From contig OX387185.1 of assembly GCA_947561395.2 (NCBI GenBank), positions 39,442,602 through 39,506,601 of the forward strand: 64,000 nucleotides of DNA, given 5' to 3'. Position numbers and translations under genes: made by a program. Each line of letters starts with the position of its first letter. Positions within the stretch are counted from its first letter, which is position 1. Below, in pieces: positions 5,491-31,326 of the stretch. This stretch comes from Buxus sempervirens. Lineage: Eukaryota; Streptophyta; Magnoliopsida; Buxales; Buxaceae. The notes under the pieces are model-generated. The model saw nothing but the letters and a program-made list of their open reading frames with translations, was not told the DNA's origin and did no database searches.

Positions 5491-5500
5491 TATTTATAGA
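5491..5500 (-). promoter_or_regulatory. LTR TATA box (minus strand)
   Basis: On the - strand TCTATAAATA, preceded by TTC and followed by CAGCAACC. The equivalent site in the opposite copy is CTATAAAAGC at 9041-9050. Conservation of position in both copies supports this as the LTR promoter. Confidence 0.5.
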
Positions 5501-6400: not shown

Positions 6401-7633
6401 CTCAGGGTTTGACTTTTCTGCTGTCTTTTATCACATTTTTTTCTTTTATTTGTTTTGATCAAAATTTGGGTGCTTACACCCACTAGACTCCAAAATTCCC
6501 TAAAGTATCATATTTCTATAAGGTTTGGTGCCTAGCGGCATACAATGGTTATATCTGTACATTTACTTCAATATTCGTTCATCTGAATTCTGAATTCTCT
6601 TTATAATGTATTCTGATTTATAATGCCATTTAGAGGTGGTCTGATAATCAAAGTGTAGTTAGGCTTTTCCAAAATCACATTTCTCAATTACCTTTGAAAC
6701 TTGGCAACTAATGTCCTAAATATCTCCCTAATTTATTTTTCTGTAAAACAGGGATTTAGATAGTTTATTTTGGTCTTAAAGTACCTTAATTAATCATTAA
6801 AATTGTCTAAAAACAGTTTAGAATTGAATTAGGTTCGAAATTATGAAAATCTGGAATTTCTGCTTAGAGTGCCTAGGATCGCTCAGGATCGCCCTAGCGG
6901 TCCCTAGTCAGCGGTAGTTCAATTTCGAGCACCCGCCGTCCATCGTCTCGCGGTCTCCGGTGTCCTAAATTTTTATAACTAGCGCCGATGATCGCCGAGT
7001 ACAGTCGAGGTCGGCGGTCATACAAAATCGAGCAGAAACAGTTCTAAATCATGATTTTTCTCGTCTAAACTCATTCTAATGTATTTATAACATGCTTATC
7101 TAGCTAAATACACCAATACATATAATAGAAACATGCGTTTGCGATTAAACGAAGGAAAATCCAATTTCTGAAAACAAAACGATGTCACCTACCTCTTATT
7201 CGTGCGTTCCTCTTCTTCTCTTCTGAACAGCAACACTCCAATCCCTCTACAGTTGCAAAGCACACTCAGAGCAAGGTAACCTGGTCTTCCTCCCTTCTTC
7301 TTCTTCTTCTCTTCTCGGTCGCTCAAACATTCGTCGCTTGCGGCTGAATAATACGATCGACAATACAAGGTATACAATTTAGGTTATTTTATACCTATAT
7401 ATACTTTCTGATCCCATGCATCTCCCATGCAAACTCTCCTATACACCTTGCCCAATTAGAATACATACCTCGATATCTCACGATCGGGCGGTCAGATCTG
7501 CATCTAATTCTGGATCTCCGCTAAATTGATCACCCCCTACAATAATAAAATATTTCCATCAATCACAACTCTCAGTAATATTATTTACTAATTTAATTTA
7601 TTATTTAAAGAAAATTAGGGGTTTTACAGGGGG

Positions 7634-7939
7634 ACCCAATAGCTTTGTATGTGATCGATCCATAACACCTTGAAGAAAAGGAAAAAAGATCAGAAACCGG
7701 CTGATAGTGACCAAATCAGCCCGGTTGAAGAGGTATGTTTTGCTAAACCATCCTTAGCCATGACTCAACATCTGAAACCTTTATTTACAAAGGCGTACAT
7801 GAACGGGATCCCTATCAATAGAATTCTAATTGATAATGGGGCGGCAGTAAATTTCATTCCAATCTCCACAATGAAGAAGCTAGGTAAGTCTTATTCGGAT
7901 TTAATTCCTTCCGAAATCACTATTACTAACTTTGCAAGA
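7634..7939 (+). pseudogene. Aspartic protease segment of the gypsy element
   Basis: Encodes GIPINRILIDNGAAVNFIP, the active-site region of a retropepsin (ILIDNGA in place of the common DTG or DSG), followed by a short stretch ending near ITNFA. It lies between two insertions. The rest of the protease region resumes at 14788. Broken fossil, no function inferred. Confidence 0.85.
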
Positions 7940-8299
7940 TGTAAAATCCCTAATTTTCTAAAAATTAAAAACTTATTATCGTAATGATTAAATTTAAAAT
8001 AATTAGTGATTTTGCAGAGAAAGGATATTTTGGATTAATTCGGAAATGTTGCTTGAGCCGGACGGGTTATTTAAAATTAAAAAGGTATGAGAAATTTCCA
8101 GAATTTTATTTAGTTGATTTATATGCTCAGATGAGGTGGCAAAAATATGTGATGCTAACTTTCATTGAGCTGCTGGTATAGGGAACTTGGTAGTGTGGCA
8201 TGTCAATGGTGTAAGCACCTCATTTTTGCGCTCCCAGAAAAGCCGGAAATGCAAACCCTGGACAGAAAGTCAAACCCTAAGTATCGAAAAGTTGACTTT

Positions 8300-8690
8300 T
8301 TGATCAAGTGATAATTGGCCACCTTACTTTATCTCAATTGATAGAGAATCCCGACGCGGTTCCAACGCAACTGAGTTTGCAGGAATCGGAGTCCGAATGA
8401 AGGTTCTGCAGGCCGGTCAAACTTGAGGGGAGCCGAAAGTTGACTTTCTGCTAAACCCCGATCCAAATGCTTACCCCTATGTCATTGGATAGAGAATCCC
8501 GACACGGTTCCAACGCAACCGAGTTTGCCGGAATCGGAGTCCGGATGAAGGTTCTGCAAGCCGGTCAAACTTGAGGGGAGCCGAAAGTTGACTTTCTGCT
8601 AAACCCCGATCCAGATGCTTACCCTTATGTCATTAAATAGAGGACTCTGATATGATTCTAATGCAACTGAGTTTGCCCAGATCGGAGTCC
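8300..8690. repeat. ~148-bp tandem repeat inside solo LTR
   Basis: ATAGAGAATCCCGAC or a variant recurs at about 8341, 8489 and 8637, a 148-bp period, with AACGCAAC and GGAATCGGAGTCCGGATG in the units. About three units are present, versus four in the sister LTR. Confidence 0.8.
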
Positions 8691-9040
8691 GGATGGAGAA
8701 GATATAAGCTGTTGAAGTTTCTGAACAGCAAAACCGGCAAACTGCACACGTGGTAAAAAGCTGCACACGTGACAAGTTGCGCAAGAAAATATCTTGGGGA
8801 TCAAATCCGTGAATATCCAAACGTACGAAATATCCCAGGGACCAAATCTGTGAATATCCCCGAATATCAGATTAAATAAAAAATATACAAGGTCTAAATC
8901 TGAAAAAACCGGATTTTCTGACAATTTAGCGGCCACATTAATGGTTTTTCAATCATTTTGCCACTCGCGCAAGCAAGGCGAGCGCAAAATGTGCTCGGCG
9001 CCAGCCAAGCGCCAACCCAGCTGATACCCTTTTTCCCCTT

Positions 9041-9050
9041 CTATAAAAGC
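9041..9050 (+). promoter_or_regulatory. LTR TATA box
   Basis: CTATAAAAGC lies just before a GC-rich transcribed-like stretch (CGCACCACACCTCGTGC). It matches the position of the minus-strand site at 5491-5500 in the sister LTR. Confidence 0.5.
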
Positions 9051-12000
9051 CGCACCACACCTCGTGCAAAGGGTTGGGAATTTTTTTAGGCGAGAGCTTT
9101 TCTTTGGTTGGCCTTGCTTCTGTTTCCCTTCCCTCCCTCGTTCGAGCTCCTTCACTTCTCATCCCTCCTTGCCTCTATAAACCCCAAGCACCTCACCCCG
9201 ATCGTGGGATTCTCTCTTCGTCTTCTCCGCTTCCACCAAAACGAGCGGAGGCTTGCTGCTGTTGGTGGTGTAAAAGGAAGAGAGCTCCAGCACTTTCATC
9301 TCAAGGAGGAGCCTCCACCTTGCACGAGAACTTACGGAACCTCAGGTATTGTTCCCCACCTACTCTTACTTCGCATATATAAATATGGGAGTTATCTAAG
9401 CATGCTACCAAATCTGTTTTTTTCTTTCCTTGTTATGACATGCATGCTCTTCTGTTTCGGGTAACGTGGAGGTCTCCAAGGGTAAGGGAGACCCCATGAA
9501 AAGAGGGGAAGCTTGGCCGTTCCACCTTAGGCCACCAAGGCCACCGTTCGGAGAGTTTTTGTGGATTATTCAATAAAGGGAGTCTGTTCCCTCGTTTGGG
9601 ATGTCTATTGTCCCCCCTGTAAATCCCCCTTCTACTTCCCTTCTCCGAATGTCCGTGTGCATGCACAGAGGTCTGGTAAAGGCATAGGTGCAAAATTTTG
9701 GTTTCCTTATTGCGTATGCAATATCTCTGTTTGTTATTGTTTTTCTTTTCATTTTGCTAGACTTGGCAACATGCTCCCCTAACCCCTGCCACCTGCTGTT
9801 TGCTTCTTGTGCGCCTGTGAGCATGCCCCCATCACCCCCCACTCCCCCTTGCAGCCGTTAGCCTGTATCTGTAGTTGTTTTTTTTATGTGGTCGAGCTTG
9901 GTTCTTTGGTAAAGAGATTTGGAGTCGTGTCTTGAAGTTGTTTAGATTAATTTCAAGTCAGTTTTAAGTGTCTTCTGGGAGTGTGAGGGACTCCGGGAAT
10001 GTGTTACAGAGACTGGAAACCAAGCCAGTCTTCAAGAAAAAGAAAAAACAGAGTATCGTATTTCGTCAAAGGTATGCGCTAAGCTCGCACCTAGATTGCG
10101 CTGAGCTCGTGCGGGGCGTTTTTGCGTCCACCGAGCCCGCGTCTTGCGCGCGCGCGAGGGCCTTTTTTGTTGATTTCCGGTTCCACCCGGCTTGTGCTGA
10201 CCTCACGCCTAGCCCCTAAGGTCAGCGCACCCTCTTAAAAAATGCCGAATTGCTTGTATTTTTTAAAACCCAACAGTGCCCTTTACCATACCGCAAGGGG
10301 CGAAACCCTATTGTTCTCCGCGTGTCCAACTCCCCAAGTCCCTCCCCTTGGACCCAGAATAGTGAGCCGATCTCCCCCAATAAATGTCATTTTTGTATAT
10401 TCTCTGTGATTTTTGCTGGATGTGGGTGGCATTCCCAAATCGAACCAAATGAACCAATAGGGTTTCCGGATCATCCGGAAACCCAATATGAGACTTGGAC
10501 CCCCGGTCCAATTTGATTTCCAGTGGGCCTTCCAACGGGGCCCACCAAGCCCAATAAACACAATGGAATGTATGCATGTAACCTAATCAAGATAAATGAA
10601 TTAATTGATCAATCCAGGCGGGCCAAATCCAAAGCGGCCCACCCGAACTTGTTTTGTGCAACATGATAGGTTTAAAATATGCGGTTTGGCCGAGACCAAG
10701 GGCGAGAGCCTATCGGGCCCGCCAAAGCCCACCAACTGAACCAAGGAAGGGTGCAAACCCTAACTTCCCGTGACTTGGGCTTTCAAGCCCGAATCAGGAC
10801 CACGGGCCCCAAGCCCAATGTCCAAACCATTTTCTGGCAGCCCAAAGGGCCTCCTAGGCTAGACAGAGGCCTACAAGGGCACATGGGCTCAACCAAGCCC
10901 ACCCCGGACACCGTGAGCCTTCCAACGGGGCCCACCACATCAGATTCAGTTCACCTAATTAAGCAAAGATAAAAGCAATTAAAGGGACCCACACCGCTCA
11001 GGTGGTCCCACTAGACTTAACCAAGTTACATGAAGGATTAGAAATCGGGTGAGAAAATAAGTGAGCTGACTCAAACCAGGATAAACCTAAGGGACCCGTC
11101 ACCCGACGGGGTGGACTGAGGTGTCTACGGACTTCCCCGGACCACAACCGAGACCCTACTTAGAATCTCAAAAGCCGCAGACCAAAGCCTTAATAGACAA
11201 GATTAGGCACCCAGGTGTCCGCCTACACCCCATCAGGCGGTGGCGACTCCGAATTTTCCCGTGCGGCGTTTCCGACGTGCGCACAAGTGGATCATGATTT
11301 AAGTTTGCCGTTGAACGGCAACTATAAATACCAACTGAAAATTAGCGCTGGTTTCATTTGGTAATCGAGCAATTGGAGAAGAGATCTCAGAGAGAAGAAG
11401 AGATCAGAAGCTTGTATTGGAGCTAAGTTGGAGGAATTCTGGTATGTGTAGAGCTCAAGTTCTGTTGATTAATCTTTGTTAGCAAGAGGTGAAGAATCCT
11501 TGGCGACTGCAATCAAATCAGATTAGAATTGGAGTTCTCGGCTAATCTGAGTTCGAAGTTCAGGTTAGATCATCTAAACTAAAAGCAAAATTTTAGAATT
11601 TTAATTTGAATTGAATGAGAAGATCAGATCGGATGAAATCTGATCTGGTGATGGTGGAAAAAAACTCAAATCAATGTTGAGCGTGGGAAATTGAAGTGCA
11701 AACTCAGAAGTTTTGCTGTTCAATTGAAGGCTCAGCAAATTGAATTCGGTATCTAGAGGTAAGTAGCACCATGTGATTTTGATTTAGACGAGTATCTTTG
11801 AATTCGGATTTAACACTGATCAACTATACTGCTGCACCTCTGTTTTACAAATTATTGACGATTAGAGCTTAAACAGTGGCAATTTGATTCATCTGATTTG
11901 AGAAGCATGTAATACTGTTATGTTAAAGGATTTGAAGTATGCTGAAGGGAAAATAGGGACGAAATTTCAGATCATTTTGTAAGAAAAACAAATTTTAACT

Positions 12001-13729
12001 TGTTCCTGTTGGAATATTGTTAGAAGCGACATGTTCAATATAGAGTTGGTTTCACGATTTACTTAAATCAAAACAGGTGTTAGAGGGTTAATTAAAGTAT
12101 TTGAATGTTGCTGAAAACTAGTTTGGAGTTAAAACAATAGGTTAGACTCAATGGAAGCATGGTTGCTACAATTGAGATTTGAAATTCTGGTAGGAGCGCC
12201 AAGTGGTGCTGGGTAGCGCCAACCTCTTCTAGAGGTCAGCGTCCAGCATGATTTTTGGTCTTTAAAAGGATTTGGTTCAGTTCTATTTTAGAGTTACTTT
12301 TTTGGAATTAATTGTGGGATTTAATCATGGGTAAATCAAGGTCCTTAGGGGAAAAACCATACGTGAGTGTAAGCTCCTGAGCGCCAACAAATGTTGACCC
12401 TAGCATGTTGGTGCTGGTCGCATAAAGGGCATAGAAGTCAATAAACTGAATAGAGTCATTGCTTAACTTTTCCACCACATCCAAGTTCGGCTATAGCTCC
12501 AACAGAAAAAGTGTGATTGTTTAAAAGTGATGGAAGACTTATTGGCACTGGTTACATACAATCAATAAAGGTCAGCGCTTAGTCCCACCTTACAGCCAAG
12601 TGTGTCTATTTCATTACAAGCAGCTTTTGTTGACTAAATGGCAAAAGCCTCCTCTAGGAGTTTCAATTTAGTGTTAACATTAGACTAAGGTGGAGTCTTT
12701 TGTTGTTGTGTTGCATTCAAATTCAAATGGATGCAAGGACATCAGTTAGAGGGTTAGGAAGGATATATAAATGTTTTAGAAGAGCAAATATAGGTTAGCT
12801 CTTATGGGTAAAAGATCTGCCGCAATGTGTAGCAAGGAATGGCTAGAGCGCCTAGGATTGCTAAACCTTGCTGAGTGGCGCCCAGCTCATGCTCTATATG
12901 ATTCGAACTTAAATTCTTAGTTCTAACAGTGGGTAAATAATTGTGGAGCTAACTAGGAATACTTAAGGGACTATTGGGAAATAAGAGAGGTTTGGTCTGA
13001 GAAATTAGTTCAGGTACTAAGGCTGAAAATCAGCAATCTATCTAGGTAAATAAGTGGAGTGTTTATGAGTTCTGGGATTTTCCATCTCTTATAATTTGTG
13101 ATTTGTAAAACTTATATGGAGGCATTATCTAAAGGATAAATGGGAGATGAAGAAGGGGAATTGGAGTGAAATATAGGTGCTGAAACTGGGGTATACTCAA
13201 GTATTAAGTATGGAAATCAGAAAAATATTGTGAGTAATGAGTTGGATGTTATAATGAAATCTGAACTTTTGTCTAGTCTCTATATTTTCCTTTTTGTAAA
13301 ACATATTAGGAAAGATCCTTTAAGGATACTTTATAAATGATAAAAAGGGATTGGAGTGCAATAATAAATGCTGGAATGAAAGTATTAAAGAGGGTTTAGA
13401 TGAAATAAGAGAGTTAAAGAAAGAGTTGAGAATATTAGACTAAATAAGAGTGAGTTAGAGTAATATTTAGGGGGAAAAGTTTCTGTTCGATTATAAAATA
13501 AATGTGTCAAATCTGAATTCAATAATACTACAAAACTTTGATATCTATATGCAGATTTGCCGGTTTAACCGAGATTTGGCAGTTTTACCAAATTTTGACT
13601 ATAAAAGGGGATTTTATGCACTATTGTGGAAAGGACCTTTAAAACAAATTATTTTGGAACAAATCTGATATTTGGAATTTTTCATATACTTGGAGGTTGT
13701 TCTTGTGAGTTGTGATGGCTTGGGTGTTA

Positions 13730-14170
13730 TCTTACCTCCATGTACTCGGGGATGCCCATGTACTTGGGATGGTGTTTACTCTGTGTACTCAGAGATGCCC
13801 GTGTGCTCGGGATGGCACGTTTTGAGTTTGGAACAAGTTGATATTATTGAGATCTCTGTTTTTGGGTTTAGCTCGAGTCTAGATGGCATAGCTCGGTGTG
13901 GATCCACATTTGTCAAGTTAAGAGCTAGGTAGTGGAATAGATTGTTTTCTTTGCTAGTTGTAATGCGTTGTTCACGGACGCGTTTCCACCGTGTACTCGA
14001 TGAGGCTTGACCATGTACTCGGCTGGCTGCGGCTATCCCTCATTTTATCGTGTACTCGGACTGTGACTAGATTAGTACATGCCAACTCATCACTGTACTG
14101 GATGGGTTCTCCCGCAATAAGACGATGATCGTATACTCGGCTTTGCACCTAAGCCGGGAGGTGGCATAGT
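13730..14170. repeat. Repeated TGTACTCGG motif in LTR insertion
   Basis: TGTACTCGG and close variants occur about eight times (near 13740, 13758, 13785, 13801, 13992, 14013, 14050 and 14132). Related LTR copies carry other short repeats in the corresponding region. Confidence 0.6.
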
Positions 14171-14787
14171 GAACTTCGGCATTACCTAGTCAAGGGCAGT
14201 CTTATTTCATGAGTCCACCGTGGACTTGTTTCTATGATTACACTTATGAATCGCTGTTATGCATTGATTGTTGATATTGCCTTTATCAGTATATATGTTG
14301 TATTTGGACTACTCGGATTGCTCTTAATGGTTGTTTATCGTTACCGATGCATGTTTTACTATTGAAGCATGTTTTAGAACTAATATAAATGTTTTGTGCA
14401 TGCATGTGCTACTCGCTGGGATATTCATATCTCATTCCGTTTTGATTTGTTTTGTTTTCAGATCCTGGTGAGGACGATATTCGTGGGGTTGAGCCAGACG
14501 CGGATTACCCCATGTATAGGGGAGAGGATTATTTTGTCGAGTGACTTTTGAGTTACATCTTAGTTGTTGTTTTCATTTGAGATAGTGAGTAACTTTTGAA
14601 TTGTAATTCTTTCAAATCCTTGTGGTTTGGTGATTGGGATATTTTAGCTAACTCTGATATTGTGATTGATGTTAATAAAATGAAATGTCATGTTTCTTAC
14701 ACTCTGATATAGATCCTGCGGTTTTGTTATCTAACTCTCGGGTATGAGTTATGGTTCCATTACGTAACCCTGATCCGCGGCATTACA

Positions 14788-15545
14788 CAGATAGTGTTAC
14801 AGGAACTAAAGGAATCCTCCCAATGGAACTAACGGTTGGGGCGCAACAATCTCTCACAGCATTCTTCGTGATTGAATCATCGGCCGGATACAACGCATTG
14901 CTGGGAAGAGATTGGATCCATTCGAATGGATGTGTACCATCTTCTTTGCACCAATCGTTGCTGTTTTGGAAAGATGGCAAAATCGAAGAGGTAAAAGCCG
15001 ACAAGCGGCCATTTGCCATAGATTCTAATGCCGCACATGCATCCCTTTTATGAAGAAAGGGTGAAACCAATTTCATTTAGTGGGTATGACAAGAACAGAC
15101 AACCGATCGCTTCAAGTTCGGTTATACTACAAACGGCGCAACAACGGCTCATAGAGGTAGCCGGAGTCGCCGAACTCAAAGAACTACCAAATGATGGTTG
15201 AACTATCATAAGTTGCAAAAGCCGTCTTGAGAAAGATGACAGCTTACATGCAAGAAGAAAAGGTGAGGAAATTGCAATAGGACCAGGAATGGCTAGGAAA
15301 CGGCGAGATAATGGTAAACTCGGCCGAATTCATCAATGAACAAGACGATTGTCAGCACCTTGTCAGCCGGTGGCAACTCCGGTATTCAATCTTTTAGGAG
15401 GCACGCACACGACATGTGCTCCCCGCCGTGCGATTTCACCACGCACAATGATGAAGGGATACAAGATTGGAATGAGATCACTCTCACCGATCTGCAAGAA
15501 ACGCTAGCCAAGCTATAAGACCTGAAGGTAGATACCCAAGATCCC
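14788..15545 (+). pseudogene. Protease C-terminal part and linker of gypsy pol
   Basis: Encodes the conserved gypsy stretch FFVIESSAGYNALLGRDWIH at the end of the retropepsin region, then a poorly conserved linker leading to reverse transcriptase. The sequence resumes directly after the right flank of the insertion ending at 14787. Broken fossil. Confidence 0.8.
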
Positions 15546-16448
15546 TTGGAAGAAGTTAACTTAGGGACAGAAACGGAACGAAAGCCTGTTTTCATAAGTA
15601 AGTTACTGCCACCCTTGGTCAGGCAAGAAATGAAACAGTTGTTGGCCGAATATTCGGATTGTTTTGCTTGGACTTACCAAGAGATTCCAGGATTGGATCG
15701 AAAAATGGTAGAACACAGGCTCCCTATCAAGCCAGAATTTAGACCATTCAGACAGCCTTCGAGGAGGATGGGTGACGATGTGATCTATAAAGTAAAAGTA
15801 GAAATAGAACGGCTTTTATCAGCCGGGTTCATTAGGCCAATACTGTACGCCGATTGGCTTTCAAATATTGTGCCTATAATCAAGAAGAATGGTCAAATTA
15901 GGGTGTGTATTGATTTCCGCAATCTGAATTCTGCAACACCCAAAGACGAGTACCCCATGCCAATCGCTGATCTTTTAGTGGATAATGCATCACGACATAA
16001 GTTTTTGTCATTTATGGACGGCCACTTCGGTTATAATCAAATTTTTATTGCCAAAGATGATGTAGCTAAAACGGCATTTTGTTGTCCTAGAGCATTAGGA
16101 ACTTATTGTTAGGTAATCATGCCCTTTGGGTTAAAAAATGCTGGTGCAACATATCAACAGGCAATGAACCTTATCTTCCATGATATGATCGGTCAAATAC
16201 TTGAGGTTTATATTGACGATGTGGTAATTAAATCTCAGACCGAAACAGATCATTTGCAACATTTAAGGCGGGTTTTTGAGCGACTTCAAAAATACAGTTT
16301 GAAGATGAACCCATTAAAATGTGCTTTTGGTGTATCGGTCGGAAACTTCCTAGGCTTTCTTGTACACCAAAGAGGAATAGAAGTTGACAAAAATAAGGTA
16401 AAGTCGGTCATAGAAGCCAAACCACCGGTCAATAAGAAGCAGCTATAA
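15546..16448 (+). pseudogene. Reverse transcriptase region of gypsy pol
   Basis: Shows the Ty3/gypsy RT blocks in order: a FRPFRQPSRRM entry motif, GFIRPI with a WLSNIVPIIKKNGQIRVCID block, FRNLN, FMDGHFGYNQI (the first catalytic Asp region), MPFGLKNAGATYQQAMN, and the YIDD catalytic box at 16209-16220 followed by VVIKSQTETDHLQHL. RT copies element RNA into DNA in the particle. The region is recognisable end to end but broken. Confidence 0.93.
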
Positions 16449-17389
16449 AGAGTGCTCGGCCAAGTAAATTTCTTGAGGATATTCATTTCAAACTTAGCCG
16501 GAAAGATCAATGTTCTATCTCCATTGTTAAGATAAAGGATACAGAAGAATTTATTTGGAATGAGGAACACCAAGCCGCTTTTGAAAGCATTAAGCAATAT
16601 TTGGCAACACCACCGGTCTTAGTGCCACCATCAAAAGAATGGCCACTAAAGCTTTACATAGCAGCTGTGAACGATTCAATCGGAGTCTTGCTTGCGCAAG
16701 AGAATGACCAGGGATTCGAACAGGCTATTTATTATCTTAGCAGATTCCTTTGTTCGGTGGAAGAAAGATACACTAATCTGGAGAAGTTGTGTCTTACACT
16801 TTACTATGCGGCTACCAAGTTATGACATTATCTCCTTTCGGCCAGAGAGATTTTTGTCATAGCAGCCACTGACGTGGTTAAGTATATGCTCACTCGAGCC
16901 ACGGTGAGTGGTAGACTCAAAAAATGGACTCTAACTCTGATGGAGTTTGACTTCAAATACGTACCACAGAAAGCGGTAAAAGGGCAAGCATTGGCCGATT
17001 TCTTGGCCGAGCACCCATCCAGTGTACAAGAGAAAGAACTTGACATCCCAGTGTTTCATGCCAATTTTTTCTATGCCGAGTTCCAGCCATGGACACTGGA
17101 ATTTGATGGTTCAAAAACAAATTTTGCTTCTGGAATCGGAGTAGTAATAACTTCACCGACCGGCGACAAGCACGAACATGCATTCCAGCTCGAAGAATTG
17201 TCTACAAATAATCAAGCGGAGTTTGAAGCTACGATTATAGGGTTGGAAATCTTATGGGAAATGGGTGCTCGAGCGGTCAATATTGTTGGGGATTCCCGGC
17301 TGGTTTTGAAGCAAATGGAGGGCATATATAACTACAATAGTGAGTCTTTAATACTCTTACTGCGAAGGGCGAGATTTTTGACCCAATAG
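16449..17389 (+). pseudogene. Paired RNase H domains of gypsy pol (Tat hallmark)
   Basis: The first RNase H (about 16601-16825) reads LYIAAVNDSIGVLLAQ with YYLSRFLCSVEERYTNLEKL, the usual Ty3/gypsy form. The second (about 17080-17370) reads LEFDGSKTNFASGIGVVI with NNQAEFEATIIGLE and VNIVGDSRLV, the archaeal-type RNase H with D, E and D residues in order. The extra domain is the main evidence for placing the element in the Tat lineage. Broken fossil. Confidence 0.88.
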
Positions 17390-17446
17390 TTCAATAGAAT
17401 TGAATTTGAACATCAGCCAAAGAAGGAAAATTACCAAGCTAATGAA

Positions 17447-18742
17447 TTGGCCCAGTTGGCATCCGGACTCAAGTTACGCGATCCAGTCAGAACAGTGACC
17501 GTGCAATCGCTCCCCAATTCCGAAAAAAGACCATTCTTGGTGGATTCACTTGCATGTTGTAATCAGACAATACGACAAGATTGGAGAGGTGAAATCTGGG
17601 AATATCTTAAAGATCCTACTGTAAAGACTAGCAGATCAACTAAAAGAAAAGCTGCCAATTATTTCATTTTGGGCGGCGAGCTATACAAAAAGAGTATCGA
17701 TGACATTCCATTCAGATGCGTCAACCCTACAGAAGCCATAATAGTAATGGCCGAAGTACTTGAAGGGGTCTGTGGCGCACACCAAACCGGAATCAAGATG
17801 CGATGGTTATTACGTCGGCATGGTTATTACTGGCCTTCAATCTTGAAGGATTGCCAAACGTTTGCCACAGAGCGTCAAGAATGTCAAAAACATGGACCCG
17901 TTCAAAGGGTACCGGCTTTCGAGTTGCAATCAATAATTAAACCATGGCCCTTCAGAGGATGGGCAATGGATTTAATTGGGAAGGTGTATCCTCCCTCATC
18001 TGGGCTACATAACTTCATCATAGTAGCTACCGATTACTTCACCAAATGGGTGGAAGCCAAACCTTTGAAAAAACAATCAGATGTGATCAAGTTTATCAGG
18101 AAACAGATAATTCACAGGTATGGCATCCCAGAGACCATTACGACCGATTCCGGCACCGTTTTCGTAGGAGAGGAAATGACTCAATTTGCCAAAACATATG
18201 GCATAAGAATGATTCAATCGATACCTTATTATGCACAGGCAAATGGACAGGCTGAAGCAACCAACAAAGTATTGAAGAATATTCTGAGGAAGATGATTGA
18301 AGATAAGCCAAGAAGTTGGCATAAACTTCTATCTGAAGCCTTGTGGGCATGTCATACGTCTTACAAGACGTCTATTGGGACTACCCCTTTTACCTTAACC
18401 TTCGGCCATGAGGCAGTTATTCCAGTGGAGATCACAGTCAAATCTTTAAGGGTGGCTATTCAAAATAATTTTACTCCTAAGGATTACACGGAAGCCATGT
18501 TAGTTGAGCTAGAAGACTTGGGAGAAATGAGGAGGTTAGCCCTAGACCGACAGATGGCACTTAAACAAAGAATTGCCAGATCTTATAACCGTCGAGTGAA
18601 ACACAAGTCATTTGCTCAAGGGGACCTAGTTTGGAAAACCCTTCTGCCAATAGGGAAAAAGGACTCCTTATACGGAAAGTGGTCACCTACATGGGAAGGA
18701 CCACTGCAAGCCAGCAAAGTATTGCCCAGGGGCATACCATAA
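17447..18742 (+). pseudogene. Integrase region of gypsy pol
   Basis: A long open stretch of 431 codons. It carries an N-terminal zinc-binding module (GAHQTGIKMRWLLRRHGYYW, then DCQTF and ECQKHG), the catalytic core with GWAMDLIG, TTDSGTVFVGEE and GQAEATNKVLKN (D, D, E residues), and a C-terminal part ending WSPTWEGPLQASKVL, a GPF/Y-like module. Integrase inserts element DNA into the genome. This stretch looks the best preserved of pol, but the element as a whole is broken. Confidence 0.9.
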
Positions 18743-19848
18743 ACAGTCGTTAGATGTCCAAGAAAAGAAGATTATCAATGGCCAGTTTTTGAAACGGTAT
18801 TTTCCCACTCTATGGGAAAGCCGCGAAATCGACAACCAACCTGAGGAAAATCAGGAATAAAATAATTACCTACTACTCGGTATCTGCAAGGCCAAATAAA
18901 TGGCATTTTCAAATCAAAGCGCCGACAGTATACGGTGCAGATTAGACTAAAATATAAGATCTCTTCGAGATCCGCTCAAGCCCATTGATCTTCCTCTAAA
19001 CATTTGGTCTATAAATACCAAAGGTAGTGCTCGCCATTTTCGTCAAGAAAAGGAAGCTGAGTGGTATGAAATGGCGAGTGATCAGAAGTTGACTACGGAC
19101 TCAGAAGATGATCGAGGAAGAAGAAGTCGACAAAGCCGATTAATTCGTAGGAATGGGCGGAATTGGAAAAGGCAGCTCTACTCTCGCTGACCCCATCATG
19201 GTAGGTCTTCTCCCACCGAGGTCTGTGCAGAGACGAGAGTTCTCCTCTCTGACCGACATTTACGCTGGTCGGATTATTTGCCATTCCTCCCTCTTTTTTC
19301 ATGTCCCTTTGATTAAATTGGCCCTCACTCACCCCATCCATGGGGGTATTGGCGTGTGGAGAAATTTCAGGGACATTCCGGCCCCGGCTGGATTATCTGG
19401 CCCTGGCTGGAATATTTAGCCTTGGTTGTATGAAAGAGCCAAAAGAGCTCGGCTTTGGTTGTATGAAAGATCAATGTTGAAATAAATACATTCTGATCGT
19501 TCTTATTTCAAGTTTTAGTCTTTCTGTAGCGAGCAGTTGATATAAAATAAAACGAGTATGTTATGCATCTAAAATATGCAAGAAACTATCGTTCAAATAA
19601 AGAAGCCGAGAAACCGGCTAAATAATAAGTTTAAAATGCCAAACACATGGCATTACCACCGAAAGTTAAATACCGAACAAACGGTATATTGTTTAAGGAA
19701 CTTACCCTTCAAACCAGGACTTAAATCGGGCATGATCATACTTCGCCCGTTCCAAAAGACATTGGAACTCAGCTCAGCGTGTCTCTACCTCCCGTTCATC
19801 CCCCATGTCCCTTTCCAAGCGATGTCGACCCGACTCTATCAGCACCTA
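18743..19848. other. Non-coding interval between integrase and antisense PMD units
   Basis: Contains a TATA-like CTATAAATAC at 19009-19018 followed by a possible short transcribed leader, and pyrimidine-rich stretches. It could belong to the 3' untranslated part or an LTR edge of the gypsy element. No end could be proved because no second LTR copy was found. No supported gene. Confidence 0.4.
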
Positions 19849-22466
19849 TCAAGCTTGAATGGATTCTCTAAGGCGTACTTCCTCGAACTTGAGCCGAGAT
19901 AATTCGTCCTGAGCAGCAACCGACAAACTGTTAGCAAGAGAGGATTGATCATGAGAATTGGCATGAAGAGTTCGCCTTAGATCTTCAATCTGACAATGAT
20001 GATTGAAAACCACACAGATTTCCCAATGAAAGTCGGAATGTCTCATCATGACAGAACGAAGAAAATCCATGGCTTTCCTCAACCGTGGTACAGCGCTATA
20101 AAATTCAAACATAGACATCAGCTGACCCTCGACCGTAGGATCCCTGCGAGAATTTGTCCCCATAGCTCAACCAAGCAACAATCAGATCTCATTCAGTTCA
20201 TCAGAAAGATCTTCAGGCCAGCGAAGAACAAGAGCTCGAAGTTCATCTCAACTATCAAAGTTAGGAAGAAATGTTGGACGAAGATAGTTAAATTCGGAAG
20301 AGTTAAAACAATGGTCTATCTCCGCAAACCATGATCTGACAAAGCCAAAACAAGTGCCAGGGAGATCACTAAGATCATCTTCGCCGACCGCGGGAATTTT
20401 TGGCTCAGAAGGTAATCCATCAGAAGGAGAATCCGATGAAGTATTGCTAGGGAGAGTGGAAGGACCAGCTTCATCAAGGCCAGGATAAGGAACAGGAGTG
20501 ACCTGCCTAAATGCGCTAGGCGAGGGATCAGCCAGGGCATTGACAGGATCAACTGAAGGACGTGATGGAGGGGTGGCATAATGAAATGAACGAGGAGGAG
20601 TCGGTATGGGAGACGACCGGCCGCTACTTCCAGAACCAATGGGGGGACCGTACTGAGGGCGAGATAAGTCAATATCTTCTTCCTCGTCCAAAGAATCGCC
20701 AACCACGGTGATATGCTCCCTCGGAAGCTGAACCCAAAACCGCATACTAGATCGAGTGGCATAAGGTCGGCTCCCGGATATCTCGCTAACCTTTTGCTTC
20801 TTCAGTGGCGATTTTTTGGATGTTGATCGACTCCGATTGGCAGTGACCTTAGATGGTTGCCTCCAGCAGGCAGTGACTGTCGGCATCGTTCGATCGTTCC
20901 TTTTCTTGCCTTTTGCACTGGACGACCGACGACCATCTGATAGACATTAAAAAACAGGTCAAACACGACCGAATACAGGAAAATAAATACACAAGGCGGT
21001 AAAAAAGAGTTACCTGAGTACCAAGCCTCATAAGACTCACGGAGATTCCCAATACGCACAACATCGGCCACGGTCGGCTGAAAAAGCGCAGTAGACGACT
21101 CCAGATTAAGCCTGACAAAGTCGGAATAAATTCGAGCCCATCTCCGAAATGAAGGTTCGGCCGAGGATTCCCGAGGAAGTGGATAGTTGCGGAAACGGTC
21201 GGAGAGATCACAGAACCGACTGGTAACTAACGACAAATAACTGGGATTGAGGACCGACCGAGAACCATCATTGGTAAAAGGGAATAGAACAAGGGGAATG
21301 CCTTGACCATATCCAAGCTGCCGACTAACAAAATGCGGCAGGTAAATTTCTACTCCTTCTCTTCTGGAAGTAGGAGGAGTATCCTCGTTATGCAAGCCAA
21401 AGGGAAGCTCCCGTGCAATGAGGTCACTAGCGATAGCACGTCAACGAGTCTCGGGAGAAGAATTGATGACAGCATAAAGAGGAGACCCATGAAATTGCTC
21501 CAAAAAAAAGCGATAAAATAAGGGCGGATGTTCTTCTTGTATACCCACAAGAAAGAAACGAAGAACAGCGTCAAAAGACAATCGCCTGGGTGTCGCAGTA
21601 AGCCAGCGACGACCAGCGTAGTAACAATCAGGAAAGGGATTATCTACAGCCTCACAGAAGAAGCCGGGGAAATATTCATAAAACCAAAATTGTAAAAACC
21701 AGAGAGGGCCACTAGCAATCCCTAATCAGCCGGAAGATAGATTATGCAAACCACGATAGACTTGGCTGAGAAAGAAAGGAGCGAAAGCCAAACTGCGACC
21801 TTCAACAAGGGCCACCGCAATACCAGCAAACTCCTTTACCATCTGAGCAGATGGGCCACAATAGAAAAAATGGCAGAAAAGGAACAGCAGGAAAGAACAA
21901 TGCTCTTGAAAAGGAGGAGGGATATCATCGTCTAAGATACACTTGGCACGAACAAAAGTGTCAAAAGCCGAAGAGGCATGGGTAGTACTAAAAACAGAAG
22001 ACCAAAAAAGAGATAGACGGTGATCTATCTCTTCCCCAAGAACCGAAAGACCGGTGATACAACAGACATCCAGAAGTGTGAGAGTCATGGGACCAGGATG
22101 GAAAGATAAGGTGTTGGAACCCTGACGCCAGAAGAAGGAAGCCACACCAAGCAAGATGGGGTCGAAAGAGATATAGAAGGTGGAGTAAAATATTATCTCC
22201 GCCAATCCAAGCCTAACCCAGGATTCCATGTAATAAGGACGAAACCTAGCTACCCACTTATTCCAATCATTAGAACGCTTCGGCCATGGACGGGGAAGCG
22301 TGATTAGGGAACCCCAGTTCACAACTTCATGGGTGCCGATTAAGTGATAAGAAGAACGCATGACAACAGGGGCGTCAACATTCTCTATATCAGTGCATGG
22401 ACCAAAAACAGGCCCATTTTCACCATCGGCAAACAGGTTCAAGTCATTAGGGTTTTCGTCCGCCAT
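19849..22466 (-). pseudogene. Antisense plant-mobile-domain unit 1
   Basis: Minus-strand coding-like unit starting MADENPNDLN at 22466. The N-terminal part matches the plant mobile domain: LPRPWPKRSNDWNKWVARF, a hydrophobic stretch, FHPGPMTLTLLDVCCITGL, then LAFAPFFLSQVYRGL. A Ser/Pro-rich low-complexity region follows (about 20300-20890), then a charged helical region at the C-terminal end (19849-20163). PMD domains occur in host proteins such as MAIN and MAIL1 and in plant transposons. Here the unit lies antisense and directly downstream of a Tat integrase, the position of the antisense ORF known in Tat-type elements, so it is probably element cargo. It is broken in several places. Whether introns explain some gaps cannot be told from sequence alone. 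Confidence 0.75.
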
Positions 22467-22893
22467 TGTCAATACCAGAAACGAGATAGAAGATACTTGC
22501 AGAGATGAAGAAGAAAGAAGCACAGTAGGGAGAACGTCTGCCGATAGAGAAAAGATTCATAATGATTCGAACTATCTGGAAGGACTTCGATAAGACAATT
22601 GTCTTCCCGAAAAAGGAATTGATGGGACGATTGCCTTCCCGAAGAAATCGAAATGACGGTTAGATATCTTCTCAATTAAAGCATTTCAAAAGTAAAGATC
22701 ATACGGACGAATCGATTTGAAAAGATGAATTTTGTCAAGAAAAGGGCCGATTCTTATGGCCATGACAATTGGCACATGGATTTCAAAAAAGATACAAATT
22801 CATTAAACACAATTACAATGGAATGCTTTCAATTTCAGAATACAAACGGTCAAAGGACTCTTGGGCAGACCGTTTTTCTTCTACCAGAGTGGA

Positions 22894-25815
22894 TCAAAGC
22901 AACAATGAATCCTGAGCCAATTCTATATCCGATTCCAGCTCACGGGCAATTTCGTTGCACTGACGGGTCTTTTCCTTCATGGTATCATCAGCAACTTCAT
23001 TAATACGGAGGAGTTCCTCCCGTTGATTTACAAGTTTAGATCTCTTAGACTGCAGCTCTGCAATCTGACGGTCAAGATCCGCAATATTACCATCAATGGT
23101 GCTCACGTGGTGGACCGTTTCAATATATTGATGATGACAAACCTCGCGTTCACTCTTCAGTTGTTGCAAAAGTTGATATCGGCCATTAACAGAATCAGCC
23201 GCATTGGTTATTTCATATATCTTGGCCGAATGATGGTCGAAAACAACTTTATCGGAATAAAGGAGAGAAAGTCAAGAGAACACCGATTTTACGTTAGAGG
23301 ACACCGAAGGAATATTCTGAAGCTCTGCTGCCAGTGCAATCACACGAGTAAGAGTCGCATCTGAAATTCCGACTATGCCTGGAGCCAGAAGGCGAATAAT
23401 CTCTGCATGAATACGTCTTGGAGATAAGGAGGAGGGATCAGGAGAACTGCCCGATCAGAAATTGGACCGAACATCATTTAACATTACACCCAATCACCCA
23501 CACCGATCATCAGAAAGAGACCCTGCATCAGGAACAAATTCCGGAGCAAGAGATGAACTGGTGCTCCCTACTTCAACGACCGCTTGCCTCGGCCGGTCAA
23601 CGCCTTCTCCCGCTCCCATGGCAGAAGAACCTGGGGGAATATCGGTCACAGCAGAAGGACCTGGAGGAATGTAAGTCCCAATAGAGGCAGTAGACGTAGT
23701 GGTTTCAACTATCGGAAGGACAACCTCCTGTTTATACCCAGGAGGCAGTTCTGGAGAAGAATCTCTTTCTGAAAAATCCTCACGAGGGGAAAAATGTTCC
23801 TGATCTTCAGGAAGTACTAAAGGAGCTTGGCACTACCAAGAGAATCCATTGGTTCGATAGGATCGACGAAGTCAGCCAGGCCCAAAGCAGACATAGGATC
23901 AACAACTAGATCCGAAAAAGATTCCATGACATTGGAAGAAAGAGTGACTGGGCCCGAGGAACTCGCAAACTAGAAAAACAGAGTGTTAAGAGAACAAACA
24001 AAAGAAGAAGAATGAACAATGAGAAACCTACGGGATTCAACACCTTTTGAGGGCGTCGTCGTAATGGAACGTCATCAGGGTCTTCATCTGGATCAATCAG
24101 GGATGCAGGACATTCTTGTAATAAAGCATCATCAGGTTCTTCGGCCAATTCCCTCGAAGGAGAAGTATAAGCTTCCAAAGCTAAAGAAGGAAGAGCCGGT
24201 GCTTCACCTATTGACCGAAAAACAGACTTAGTATCGAACAAATTAGAAACAAGGAGGAGGAGAATGTACCTTCTTGGATCGGTGCAGGCAAAGACTCAAG
24301 CAGACCCAATCTTTCAAGATAATAATCGGCCGAATGGCAGCATATTTCATTCCAGAAGGAACCCCACCATACATGAAAGTCAGAGTGGCAACTGGCATGA
24401 GAAGGAAGAAAGGGAAGACGAAAATCGACAGCAATTGCCCTATACCTCTCTTCCATTTGAGTAGCATCAGCGGCAGTGACAGACGGTCGTTCAATAGAAC
24501 GGGTATCAATGGTAAATAGACCCTCTACATTGAGGTAGGGTATCCTCTGTTCACAATGGAATTGCCGGCCTACACAATTCGGCAAGTAGACTTCGAATCC
24601 CAGTTTCTTGTTGATGGCCTTCACAGAATAATTCAAATTTCGAGCTAGCAAAAAGCTGGCCCAGATAAGATGCTGCGCATCGGTTATGTCATCCATCATA
24701 GAAAGGAAACCAAGAGCATTAGCAGAAATTTCGAAATGAGGAGTGGGGAAGTGCTGAAGTTCAAAAAAGAAACTAAAGCATTTGGAAAAAGAGAGGGCAG
24801 TAGAAGTCGCATCCAAACAGACATAACCACCAAACTCAGCAGGAGTAGGATTCGTTACCAGGGTATAAAACTTGGATGGAAAATAGTGGTAAGCCCAGAA
24901 TTGGAGAAACCACAACGGACCCCCAGGATTCTGAAGGGTGCCATGAATCAATTCTTGAAGCAAACGGTATAAGACCGACAAAAAATAGGGAGCAAGGGCG
25001 ACTTCATACTCCCCCAGAATAAGCTTGACCAGTGAATAGTATTCTCTGGTAACCGCTTGGGCTTTAGTGCAAAAGACGAAATTACAAAAGAAGTAAAGAA
25101 GGAAGTAGAAGTGTTCCACATCATCCTCGTATTCTGGAGGTTGGAACTTTGCGTAGTCCTTAATATAGGACCGATATGAGGTACGAATCATATCCACCTA
25201 TTGAGGTTTACTTCCTGACAATACAATCCCTTTCTACCGCGAGGATCCCTCCTTCTTAGAAGGTTTTGGCTCCTTCACTGGGGGTTGCTTCCTCTTCTTT
25301 AGCACCTCTTTTCCCTTCTCACCTACCTCCACCAAAGGTAAGTGCTGGTAAGCCTTGAGATCTGTCATACCGACCCGAATCTCATGCCCAGTCACGAAGA
25401 AGCCGGTAACGAAGCAAACGTCCATGACAGTGGGAGTCATCGGCCCGCAAGGGAAGTTGAAAGTATTGGTCTGGGCATTCCAGAATAAACTCATGGCGTA
25501 GAGAAGATCGCGATTCAAAGGAATCGGACGACAAGAAAATTGAATCATATCATAAATACCAGTTTTGCGCCAAGTGACTGCAAAACGCTCTTGCATTCGG
25601 CTGACCCAGGCTACCCATTCATAATAAACAGTCGGCCAACTCCGAAAACGGATAGATTGATTAAGACTTCTTCCATCAGTGAAAAGTAAGGGGCCCTTCA
25701 CTTTATCAGTCGGAGCATCCAAAGGAGCATCACGAGAACAAAGGAAAGGACTGACAGATAGCGAAACATCAAAAACTTCGACCGGAGAAGAGTAGTATAT
25801 AATAGTGCCCACCAT
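22894..25815 (-). pseudogene. Antisense plant-mobile-domain unit 2
   Basis: Second minus-strand unit with the same layout as 19849-22466. From MVGTIIYY at 25815 it shows FRSWPTVYYEWVAWVSRMQ, FPCGPMTPTVMDVCFVTGF and, further on, EHFYFLLYFFCNFVFC, ALAPYFLSVLYRLLQ and GPLWFLQFWAYHYFP, all typical of the plant mobile domain. An acidic low-complexity part follows (about 23906-24240). A coiled-coil-like end (22894-23169) has the heptad-like stretch IADLDRQIAELQSKRSKLVN. The two units start 3349 bp apart, so they are either a tandem duplication within one element or parts of two related elements. Broken in several places. Confidence 0.75.
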
Positions 25816-27092
25816 GGAAGGAAAAGGAGAAAGAAAAGACAATAGCTAAAAAAGACAAAGAAATGAAGAATATAGAATTTGGCTGCGATGTTTTATAAAC
25901 AAGCCGGAAGACGAAGCCCAAAGAGTCTCATCATTCTGATCGTGGGAAAGTGAAGCACCAATGTCCATAATCCCTATAATCACCAAAAAAGTAGATTCTA
26001 ATTATGGGCTTAATTATACAACCAGATAGTAAAATCTGGCTTTAAAATCCCAACCAAACACACCTTTTGGATTATGGAATCTGATTCTATTAGAATCCAA
26101 ATTCTATAATGCCCACCAAACACCCCCTAAGACTTATTAAGTTTGGGTTTGGGTTTGGGTCAGGCTTAATTTTAGGTCAGAAGTTGAGTTTGGATTGGGC
26201 TTGGGTTCTTGCTTCAAAACACGAAAAGCCCAAAGAGCCCGAACACAAAAAGAAACACATGAGTTACATCTAAGCATAACTACATCCAAAGAAGAAACCT
26301 ATGACTTATATCCATACATATATTTTTTATAACATCTTTTCTCTATTGTTTAAAGGGATTGGAGTTATTTTTACCCAACATTCCATGAAGAAAATTGCAC
26401 TACTATTTCGTTTTCTATATTAGTCTTCTAAAACCTTCAAGAGAGGTGATTGACCATGTTGAAGTGCAATCTATAATAACAATTTAATACATACCATAGG
26501 AATGACAAAGTTAATTAATCAAGTAGATTGTACTCACATACACAACTAGGAACGGTAAAATTTAATTAATAAAATAGAGTATCCTCACTTTTACATAAAC
26601 AAGACAAATATTTATATGAACCGATTTATATTAGGTAAAATACATTATCTATTGTAATATTGGGTTTTTCCTTTTTAAGATACTCATAGGAACACATGAA
26701 TTGTATTTTATCCTTTTAGATTTACATTTATTGAATAAATTTCTATCGTTGTTGCATCCTAGCTACTATTTTAGTTCATCAATTCTATTTTTGCTTAGTT
26801 ATAAAAGGATTTCAAATGCAATTATCTTAAGTGAACATTTAATTTGGGTTGGCCTAAACCCAGCCCGAACTCAAGAAAAAGTTTTAGGATTGGGTTTGGA
26901 CTCATGGTGTTTAGGTTTACCGAGTAATGTGAGTTTGGGCCAAGTAATTTTAGTTTTGGTTCATCCAGAACTCATAAAACCCCGGCCCAAGCCAGCCTAC
27001 TTACCGCTCAATTGCTAAAATGGTAGCCACCTGCGCTTACTTTACTATCTTGTCCTCATAACGCACACGTCGACGCCTCTGCGTCGCGTAGC
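25816..27092. other. Gene-free interval with MITE-like and GGGTTT-rich DNA
   Basis: About 25970-26130 is rich in CCAAACACACC/CCAAACACCCCC phrases, typical of the ends of small hAT- or Harbinger-like MITEs, but no complete TIR pair could be set. GGGTTTGGGTTTGGG near 26140 is a short imperfect repeat, not the plant telomere unit TTTAGGG. The rest is AT-rich with no supported gene. Confidence 0.4.
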
Positions 27093-28875: not shown

Positions 28876-29790
28876 AGTTGGTCTATGAAAATTAAAATCA
28901 TTTACAATTTCTTAATCAAAGAAAGTCCTAGAAGAAAATCCTACAATTTGGTCTATGAAAATTTAAATTTATCAAAAACTAAATATATAATGGTTAATTG
29001 AGGAACATTATCTCATTATACCAAGGCTACAGGATTTTTTTTTTTTTTTTACTCAAGACGATTTCCACTTAAAACTTTAATAAAAATTTAAAAATATAAT
29101 TCATGGTATCAATGCTCTAGTGTAATTGAATAATGATTTGATTTACTACACCTTAATTTATTTTGCTTAATTTAAGTTTGGTTTTATGACTCATGTTTTA
29201 CATCCCTAAAACAGGACATCTAAAAAGATGTCTGTCCTTATCCTAAACGAGCCTAGTCAAACTTAACTTGAGAAATCCTCAAGATCAAATTGTTAAAATA
29301 TCAAGCTCATGTTCAGCTTAGACTTGTTAAAATATCTTAGTGTTTGAAGTAGAGAATTAAAATTAGATTGCAGCATTACAATTCTACAAATTTTCTAAAT
29401 TATGATTCTTTAAATTGTAATTATTCTGTTTGATTGCAATAAAAAAAAATTACGATTCTGAATTTCATGTAATTCAAATCCCAACATTTCTGAATTTCGG
29501 CAACTCAGGTCGTTGAGCTCAATTCAAGTCAAGACCTGATCGAGCTTTTCGGACATTATCTAAAAGCAGCGAGTGAAACGCGGAATATCTCCAACACAAA
29601 TTCGGACCGATTTCCTCAACGGCGTCGTTTTACGGCATGCATAAGTAAACGACGCCCGGAGATTTCGGTCCTTATAATCAATAATCGTGGGTTGTGACTC
29701 GTGGGTTGTGACTTTAGCAATGGACGTCAGCAGCGGACGTGAGACGTTTCCTCTTTGAGTAAATATCTTTAAAAATTCAAAAAATTATAA
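28876..29790. other. Gene-free interval; partial dispersed repeat shared with 41.7-42.1 kb
   Basis: About 29120-29350 resembles 41740-42060 and, in part, 49020-49140: shared phrases are AATGATTTGATTTA, AATTTATTTTGCTTAATTT and TTGTTAAAATATC. A homopolymer T run lies near 29036. No supported gene. Confidence 0.5.
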
Positions 29791-30465
29791 CTGGCATGGT
29801 GAGACTTGGACTTGTAACCAAGCATGATAAGACTTGTAATGGGGCATGGTAGGACTTGTAACCGAGCATAGTAGGACTTGTAATCGAGCATGGTGGGATT
29901 TGTAACAAGGCATGGTAAGACTTGTAATCAAGTATAGTGGGGCTTATAACGAGGCATGGTGAAACTTATAACCAGGCATGATAGGACTCGTAACGGGGTA
30001 TAGTGGGACTTGTAACCAGACATGATAGGACTTATAACCTGGTAGGATTTGTAATGGGGCATGGTAAGACTTGTAACCAGGCATTGTGGGACTTGTAACC
30101 GGGCATGGTAGGATTTGTAATCAGGCATTGTGGGACTTGTAACAAGGCATGGTAAGACTTATAACCAGGCATGGTGGGACTTGTAACGGGGCATGGTGGG
30201 ACTTGTAACTAGGCATTGTAGGACTTGTAACCAGGCATGATGAGACTTGTAACCACGCATGGTAAAACTTGTAACAAAGCATGATGGGACTTGTAACCAG
30301 GCATGATGAGACTTGTAACCACGCATGGTAGGACTTGTAACAAGGCATGGTGGGACTTATAACAAGGCATGATGGGACTTGTAACCAGACATGATGAGAC
30401 TTGTAACCACGCATAGTAGGACTTGTAACAAGGCATGGTGGAACTTGTAACCAGGCATAGTAGGA
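29791..30465 (+). repeat. 22-bp minisatellite, forward arm
   Basis: About 30 tandem copies of a 22-bp unit close to GGCATGGTGGGACTTGTAACCA with scattered substitutions (GGGG, AAGG and ACGC variants before the CATGG core). Peptide repeats in several frames result from the array and are not evidence of a gene. Confidence 0.95.
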
Positions 30466-30494
30466 AATGACGCGTGGATTATAATGGGGATTTT

Positions 30495-30702
30495 GGTTAC
30501 AAGTCCTGCCATGCCCGGTTACAAGTCCCACCATACCCCGATACAAGTCCCACCATGTCCGGTTACAAGTCCCACCATGCTCGGTTACAAGTCCCACCAT
30601 ACCTCATTACAAGTCCTACCATGCCAGGTTACAAGTTCAAGTACTACATACCAGGTTACAAGTCCCACCATGCCTGGTTACAAGTCCCACTATGCCCCGA
30701 TA
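30495..30702 (-). repeat. 22-bp minisatellite, inverted arm
   Basis: About nine to ten copies of the same 22-bp unit in reverse complement (GGTTACAAGTCCCACCATGC). About 30 bp of unrelated sequence separates it from the forward arm, so transcripts through both arms could fold into a long hairpin. Confidence 0.95.
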
Positions 30703-31326
30703 TGTTCAAGAGACACGTGGATACGTTCGTACAAATCAGTTTCCAGATTAATACAAAAAATTTTTTTTTTTTATAGTGCAGATTAATACAATTCTATTTT
30801 CTGTTTTTTCTGCACATAAAATAATAATAATTGTGAGATGCAGGTACACATTCCAAGAGACACGTGGGCTATTTATCCAAAAATTAAAAAAAATAAAAAG
30901 AGACGTGGATTTATTGTTGAGCTGCCGTGCTTTTTTTTTTTTTTTTTTTTTGCTAAAAAAACAAGAACGGAAAAATGATCACTAACGACAAAAAAGCAAA
31001 AATGGACGGAAGAGGCTCTCTATCGCGTGTATTACCTTTTGTGAAAAAATCTCATTAAGAATGTCCACGCGTCGTTTTCTTATAGACGCCGTAGAAGCGC
31101 CGTAGAAAGAAATCGGTTCCACAAATTCGCTCGCTTTCTGGATTTCATAGCACGAACATGTGTCATCATGGGTCCCGTAGTTTTGCTTCTGCAGCACATG
31201 CCGGATTTTGCTTTAACATTTTCAAATGAGAAAAAACCCTAAACAAAAATCTCCCAACTTAAACTCAAAACGAAGGATGAAAGAAATATAAAAACCTAAA
31301 AACTCAAAACAAAGATCCGAAGTAGA
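30703..31326. other. Gene-free interval with G-box phrases
   Basis: CAAGAGACACGTGG occurs twice (about 30706 and 30854), each with a CACGTG core. About 31150-31250 is homologous to 50470-50580, the upstream flank of the small gene copy Y. Homopolymer T runs are near 30761 and 30931. No supported gene. Confidence 0.5.

Follow-up and report, generated by a model that had tools for sequence, protein, structure and literature searches.

Behind the integrase of a Tat-type Ty3/gypsy retrotransposon lineage of Buxus sempervirens lie two diverged genes in tandem, units A and B, each of which encodes a plant mobile domain (PMD; PF10536), runs antisense to the element and is predicted to be spliced. 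The 5967-bp stretch followed up here (19849..25815) belongs to a window of 64,000 nt on contig OX387185.1; the window is the whole stretch of DNA that was analysed, and coordinates are window positions unless another copy is named. We regard the anatomy of this antisense pair and the selection acting on it as nearly certain. In two paralogues of one element, splice sites are kept and selection is frame-specific. This is genomic evidence for a spliced, protein-coding antisense gene pair, and it bears on the otherwise unexplained roles of the antisense extra open reading frames (ORFs) of Tat elements.

Two antisense PMD genes within one element

A first-pass annotation of the window had proposed two tandem antisense PMD units behind a Tat integrase, and the profile search upheld this; neither outcome that it had named as contrary, a lack of PMD matches or other copies devoid of the units, was seen. 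Against a curated Pfam cut-off of 34.9 bits for PF10536, a piece of unit A at 21726-22556(-) scored 60.9 bits (E 1.6e-16) and two pieces of unit B, at 24208-25197(-) and 25234-25845(-), scored 62.6 bits (E 4.9e-17) and 50.2 bits (E 2.9e-13), respectively; a further unit A piece, 20802-21440(-), reached merely 11.6 bits, under the cut-off. The RVT_3/RNase H and integrase pieces of pol lie on the + strand, as does a reverse transcriptase (RT) piece whose 20.4 bits are below its own Pfam cut-off. In intact relatives both units match PF10536 above the cut-off (E 9.1e-31 for A and 1.4e-31 for B), and PF04195 (TRP28) is absent from the Pfam scans of A and B pieces of the window and of these relatives. 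The start codons at 22466 (A) and 25815 (B) lie exactly 3349 bp apart, as had been annotated, and the units are indeed clearly diverged, their PMD exons being 29% identical over 478 columns (E 1e-51), with no significant blastp match between the two tails. The annotated extent was right at the start of B and wrong at the end of A, which runs on to 19702.

The shared layout read from the window copy, a PMD followed by a low-complexity region and a coiled-coil-like tail, is found in intact relatives of both units, where the PMD exon precedes a P/S/T-rich part and a charged, coiled-coil-like tail. The P+S+T fraction is 0.37 in residues 1-200 of A exon 2 and 0.35 in residues 1-170 of B exon 3, compared with 0.20-0.22 in the PMD exons; in heptad scoring, the top window of the tail exceeds 199/200 shuffles in B and 190/200 in A, whereas the PMD exons, used as controls, exceed 152/200 in B and 131/200 in A.

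The introns had been missed in the first reading. Unit A has one, directly behind the PMD, and unit B has a phase-1 intron at that place and a phase-0 intron further on. By eye, the A intron is also present in L033 and the old locus L049, B intron 1 in the old loci L049, L050, L051 and L054, and both sites of B intron 2 in L050, L051 and L054. Over its first 64 codons, A exon 2 has a ratio of nonsynonymous to synonymous divergence (Ka/Ks) of 0.11-0.33 (17 comparisons, some with wide intervals), and a C6 copy contains no in-frame ATG in the first ~110 codons of this exon; such protein-like evolution without an early ATG argues that exon 2 is joined to exon 1. With intron sites kept in old copies, both units are best read as spliced genes.

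The best-described copy of the element, C4, is 16.6 kb long and is bounded by LTRs (long terminal repeats) of 1088 bp that are 99.54% identical (42304703-42305790 and 42320223-42321310), with a purine tract and a 5-bp target duplication, GTAAC (the duplication was checked in this copy only). Its order is gag, protease, RT, RNase H, RVT_3 and integrase, then antisense A and B, then the 3' LTR; RVT_3 (614-732) sits between RT_RNaseH (459-562) and rve (896-991). Gag and protease are in separate ORFs, the protease match is weak and under its Pfam cut-off, and the RT ORF shares ~40 bp with that of the protease. LTR matches also occur in C9, where the 3' LTR is interrupted, and in C12, and antisense ORFs between pol and the 3' LTR were seen in C4, C9, C12 and the C6 copies. 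The window is collinear with all of these, its identity to C4 being 86-89% in the pol pieces and 74% in the region behind pol. A second RNase H placed between the first and the integrase, the domain order with a target duplication and the antisense ORF are traits of the Ogre/Retand type within the Tat lineage, and because both units lie inside LTR-bounded copies, we read these copies as one element lineage with two antisense genes.

Recurrence of the pair and selection on its exons

The genome search covered 676.5 Mb in 247 contigs of this one species, and its counts are lower bounds, as the best candidates were scored. The PMD family has at least 117 scored matches among 8447 candidates and none in 14 control genomes. 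Among the best 29 of 543 candidates, the 5967-bp stretch recurs nearly full length, at 83-90% identity, at no fewer than 11 further places, besides partial copies, and the pair is therefore more than a chance arrangement; this family-wide spread had escaped the first-pass annotation. A younger family includes at least 21 copies, the query among them, that extend over the full 6418 bp between unit A and the region before B, both included (best 24 of 553 candidates), the 20 non-query copies being 96-98% identical. The A protein has at least 74 scored matches, 43 of them stop-free (among 1194 candidates), and the B protein at least 76, of which 59 are stop-free (among 2029 candidates). These form at least 59 A-B pairs on the same strand and in the right order, distributed over 14 contigs; 56 of the 59 are spaced 3236-3361 bp apart and three are wider, and the PMD exons of both units are stop-free in 33 pairs. 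Four older loci, in which the PMD exons are 49-71% identical to A or B, carry the same tandem order (at L050 the stretch ends within A, so that A is partial).

Matches to A or B without a partner number 32 (15 A and 17 B). When four of each were checked, the partner was present at six of the eight loci, in pieces at five of those six, and the unpaired matches thus largely reflect decay and the number of candidates scored, not single-unit copies. A separate PMD family, L001-L005, whose members are 96-99% identical over 3.0-3.5 kb, contains the highest-scoring PMD matches of the genome; DUF1985 was also matched, below the cut-off of that profile, by the one member tested.

Ka/Ks was calculated by the Nei-Gojobori method among the window copy, C3, C4, C9, C12 and two C6 copies. 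In A exon 1, which holds the PMD, it is 0.09-0.18 (21 comparisons), with wrong frames at 1.23 or more; in the corresponding B exon 1 it is 0.13-0.25 (10 comparisons), with wrong frames at 1.05 or more. A exon 2 has values of 0.17-0.36 (14 comparisons; wrong frames 0.86-1.6), B exon 3 of 0.29-0.59 (14 comparisons) and pol of 0.05-0.15 (6 comparisons). Constraint therefore decreases from pol to the PMD exons to the tails. As a check on Ks, p at four-fold sites between the window and C9 was 0.45 in A exon 1, 0.44 in B exon 1, 0.30 in B exon 3 and 0.34 in pol. Ks is uneven along C3, low in B exon 2 and high in A exon 1, which makes recombination between subfamilies likely. Judged by these substitution patterns, A and B evolved as proteins under purifying selection, and the preservation of both in many copies suggests that they serve the element as a pair.

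Regions between the genes and decay of the window copy

Two stretches of the element outside its recognised genes are conserved as well. Between the window and C9, p is 0.24 in the spacer between B and A, compared with 0.45 at four-fold sites of A exon 1, and 0.18 in a 0.8-kb stretch between pol and A, compared with 0.34 at four-fold sites of pol; in the region before B it is 0.43. The 0.8-kb stretch gave no convincing coding signal in six frames and no Rfam match. A third antisense ORF of 144-166 aa considered between pol and A was dropped: the one tested had no Pfam match, C9 has no ORF of at least 110 aa there, and no clear coding signal was found. Before B, TATAAA can be read by eye in the window, C4, C12 and L055, and CATAAA in C9. 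Each gene probably has its own promoter, with the TATA-like site ahead of B and the conserved spacer ahead of A as candidates.

The window copy is a dead, decayed Tat-type Ty3/gypsy element (Table 1). It reaches back to gag (391) and is interrupted by two nested inserts, at ~2145-7632 and 7944-14793. Large inverted repeats occur here (3355-3808 with 10839-11290, and 5559-6207 with 8327-8970), which suggests that related elements inserted in opposite directions flank a 0.3-kb Tat fragment. The window copy itself has no LTRs. The close relative L055 (92% identity over 359 bp) matches the window up to 25952, past which L055 runs into a polypurine tract and LTR and the window into other sequence. 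Further along the window, a partly inverted array of 22-bp tandem repeats (29742-30719) is similar to an inverted array flanking the C12 element (L027 1690-3205).

Table 1. Features of the window copy of the element, with stops counted against the frames of relatives.
Feature	Position	Strand	Remarks
Gag of the same element	391-1105	+	5' part of the element
Protease of the same element	1377-2153	+	further pieces 7633-7943, 14781-15201
Pol pieces: RT, RNase H/RVT_3, integrase	15519..18742	+	five stops
Conserved stretch, pol end to unit A stop	18908..19704	.	no convincing coding signal
Unit A exon 2 (P/S/T-rich part and coiled-coil-like tail)	19702..20936	-	six stops
Unit A intron, GT..AG, phase 1	20937..21013	-	sites kept in 6/6 aligned copies
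Unit A exon 1 (holds PMD)	21014..22466	-	start codon to splice donor; two stops
Spacer, B stop to A start	22467..22812	-	conserved; possible A promoter (inferred)
Unit B exon 3 (P/S/T-rich part and coiled-coil-like tail)	22813..23969	-	four stops
Unit B intron 2, GT..AG, phase 0	23970..24043	-	kept in 5/5 aligned copies
Unit B exon 2	24044..24207	-	between the two B introns
Unit B intron 1, GT..AG, phase 1	24208..24269	-	kept in 4/4 aligned copies
Unit B exon 1 (holds PMD)	24270..25815	-	start codon to splice donor; two stops
Surviving 3' end of the element	25815..25952	+	polypurine tract and 3' LTR missing from the window
TATA-like site upstream of unit B	25890..25899	-	read by eye; putative function

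Origin, possible role and known systems

The first-pass annotation had left three origins side by side, namely duplication of cargo within an element, overlap of two elements and capture of host PMD genes; the LTR-bounded C4 copy, the 59 pairs and the gene tree speak for the first of them. In a midpoint-rooted tree of 27 rows, A-like and B-like sequences form separate clades (support 100/100 and 96/99), and two further Tat families, II and III (L008/L036 and L011/L035), together with L018, are set apart at 100/98. In families II and III, pol with RVT_3 is followed by one antisense PMD ORF behind the integrase, of 985 aa in II and of 720 aa in III, where 150 and 133 aa follow in the same frame; there is no intron break behind the PMD, and a further 4.4 and 3.6 kb of sequence, which stop short of the 3' LTRs, showed no second PMD. 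Since these ORFs lack the break, the intron behind the PMD looks derived and common to A and B, where its positions are ~13 residues apart in the alignment, and the shared phase-1 intron makes it more likely that a single spliced gene was duplicated within the element. We consider it very probable that the pair arose by such an internal duplication of a spliced antisense PMD gene, and the sequences describe it as old, duplicated accessory cargo of the element lineage.

The proposal of a pair of adjacent Tat elements, overlapping or nested and with a single antisense unit apiece, might appeal to the missing LTRs and nested inserts of the window copy; it is rejected because C4 holds both units within a single LTR pair with a target duplication, and the dispersed pairs of near-constant spacing leave it virtually no probability. 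Recent capture of host genes is not supported either, as the four old loci already hold the pair; an ancient capture of a PMD preceding the duplication is possible. Separate capture of two host PMD genes together with their introns, in place of one gene duplicated within the element, would suit the presence of introns, the low identity of A and B and a tree whose rows did not include host genic PMDs. We judge it improbable, given that A-like and B-like sequences group together apart from families II and III and L018 (the long-branched L001/L002 family is not resolved from A and B) and that both genes have the same layout and a phase-1 intron directly behind the PMD.

Genes that lie antisense in an LTR retrotransposon keep their introns during retrotransposition, because the RNA that is copied is the other strand. 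As A and B run against the genomic RNA, their introns would survive each round and the genes would stay spliced. Their proteins may enter the nucleus, basic stretches resembling nuclear localization signals being present in A exon 2 and B exon 1, and may work there as a pair, perhaps held together by their tails. Such a pair could engage or mimic the host PMD complex MAIN-MAIL1-PP7L and thereby weaken silencing of the element. In Nicolau (2020, PMC7156037), MAIN and MAIL1 are reported to interact with each other and with PP7L; heterodimers have been suggested, and PMD-A1 and PMD-A2 were found only in Gypsy elements (Ikeda 2017, PMC5418596), and PMDs made by transposable elements have been proposed as a counter-silencing strategy (review PMC8616336). 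Because host silencing PMDs also work paired, the idea that element-borne PMDs oppose silencing becomes testable with two defined genes. Taken as a whole, anatomy, selection, duplication and a counter-silencing pair form the best explanation we can offer, one that we hold at somewhat less than even confidence; counter-silencing as the function of a nuclear A-B pair is, taken by itself, a tentative suggestion. It is unlikely, in our estimate, that A and B are obligate partners derived from one duplicated gene, forming a two-protein PMD complex that mimics or antagonises MAIN-MAIL1 in the nucleus and is encoded by a spliced module whose introns are protected from retrotransposition by the antisense orientation; if they were, the Gypsy-only PMD-A1 and PMD-A2 might represent the halves of such a module across flowering plants.

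Equal in rank to counter-silencing, and held just as tentatively, is the view that A and B are replication accessory proteins, acting for instance in nuclear import of the pre-integration complex or in integration site choice, without any role in host silencing. Related antisense ORFs have been suggested as retrovirus-like accessory factors, the one of Grande being nuclear (PMC7264820), and the selection on A and B would fit any protein role that helps the element; this view leaves unexplained why the PMD is shared with host silencing proteins and why there are two genes, neither of which is a strong objection. Antisense transcription might instead be the function itself, convergent transcripts giving double-stranded RNA that limits the element, with incidental proteins. 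Transcripts from the two strands would meet in the conserved 0.8-kb stretch, which lacks a clear coding signal, and tea PMD genes are reported to yield phased small interfering RNAs (PMC10673657). We give this only a slight chance, since frame-specific selection on both PMD exons and the kept splice sites show that the proteins matter; double-stranded RNA production could be an added role beside them.

Several observations weigh against the explanation favoured here. B exon 3 is the least constrained exon, and its wrong frames (0.42-1.55) reach down to 0.42; B exon 2, at 0.21-2.52 in 12 comparisons, is uninformative. A exon 1 and B exons 2 and 3 showed no basic motifs. AlphaFold modelled the PMD exons of A and B poorly (pLDDT 47.6 and 44.1), and Foldseek with the A model returned 41 matches, none at E 0.001 or below. 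A sequence search of the PDB at E 1 gave no match, and viral contigs yielded one pattern match and no relative. Not every inserted copy holds both genes: two of the eight unpaired loci checked are deletion derivatives that have lost the PMD of A, and at L034 (1756-3851) one open frame of 691 aa joins the N-terminal part of B to A, apparently via deletion of the intervening stretch.

Antisense PMD ORFs in Tat elements are already known; what appears to be new is the tandem, diverged, spliced pair, of which no report was found in the literature covered, the 2011 extra-ORF survey and the gene23 paper being outside that coverage, and earlier notice is possible. PMDs in extra ORFs were recorded in 57% of Ogre elements (PMC6317226; see also PMC9289625). 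The PMD-bearing Ogre (Neumann et al. 2019, PMC6317226) resembles the Buxus element in its Tat lineage, in the additional RNase H that sits between the usual one and the integrase, and in the extra ORF with pfam10536; unlike here, no tandem pair, extra-ORF introns or selection tests are mentioned in the accessible part of that description. Retand with antisense TRP28 (Vicient 2025, PMC11963269) likewise has antisense ORFs in a long region that separates pol from the 3' LTR, and its 104 antisense ORFs in 63 clusters indicate that more than one per element occurs; its domain is TRP28 (PF04195), with PMD not among the domains listed in the portion available, whereas A and B carry PMDs without PF04195. 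Grande gene23, described as antisense, nuclear and with its own promoter in the sections seen of a review that also calls for a search for antisense and spliced transcripts (Vicient and Casacuberta 2020, PMC7264820), shares the position between pol and the 3' LTR; it is one gene for which those sections report no database similarity, in contrast to the two PMD genes here. Tat families II and III of the same genome differ from the pair by their single PMD and uninterrupted frame. The PMD clades of Ikeda (PMC5418596) are also Gypsy-encoded and two in number, and their pairing in one element is not mentioned in the part of that paper available. MAIN and MAIL1 are genic PMD-C proteins outside LTR elements, likened to A and B by description only; in the account consulted (PMC7156037) they are, like the pair proposed here, two PMD paralogues that interact, and they act together in silencing.

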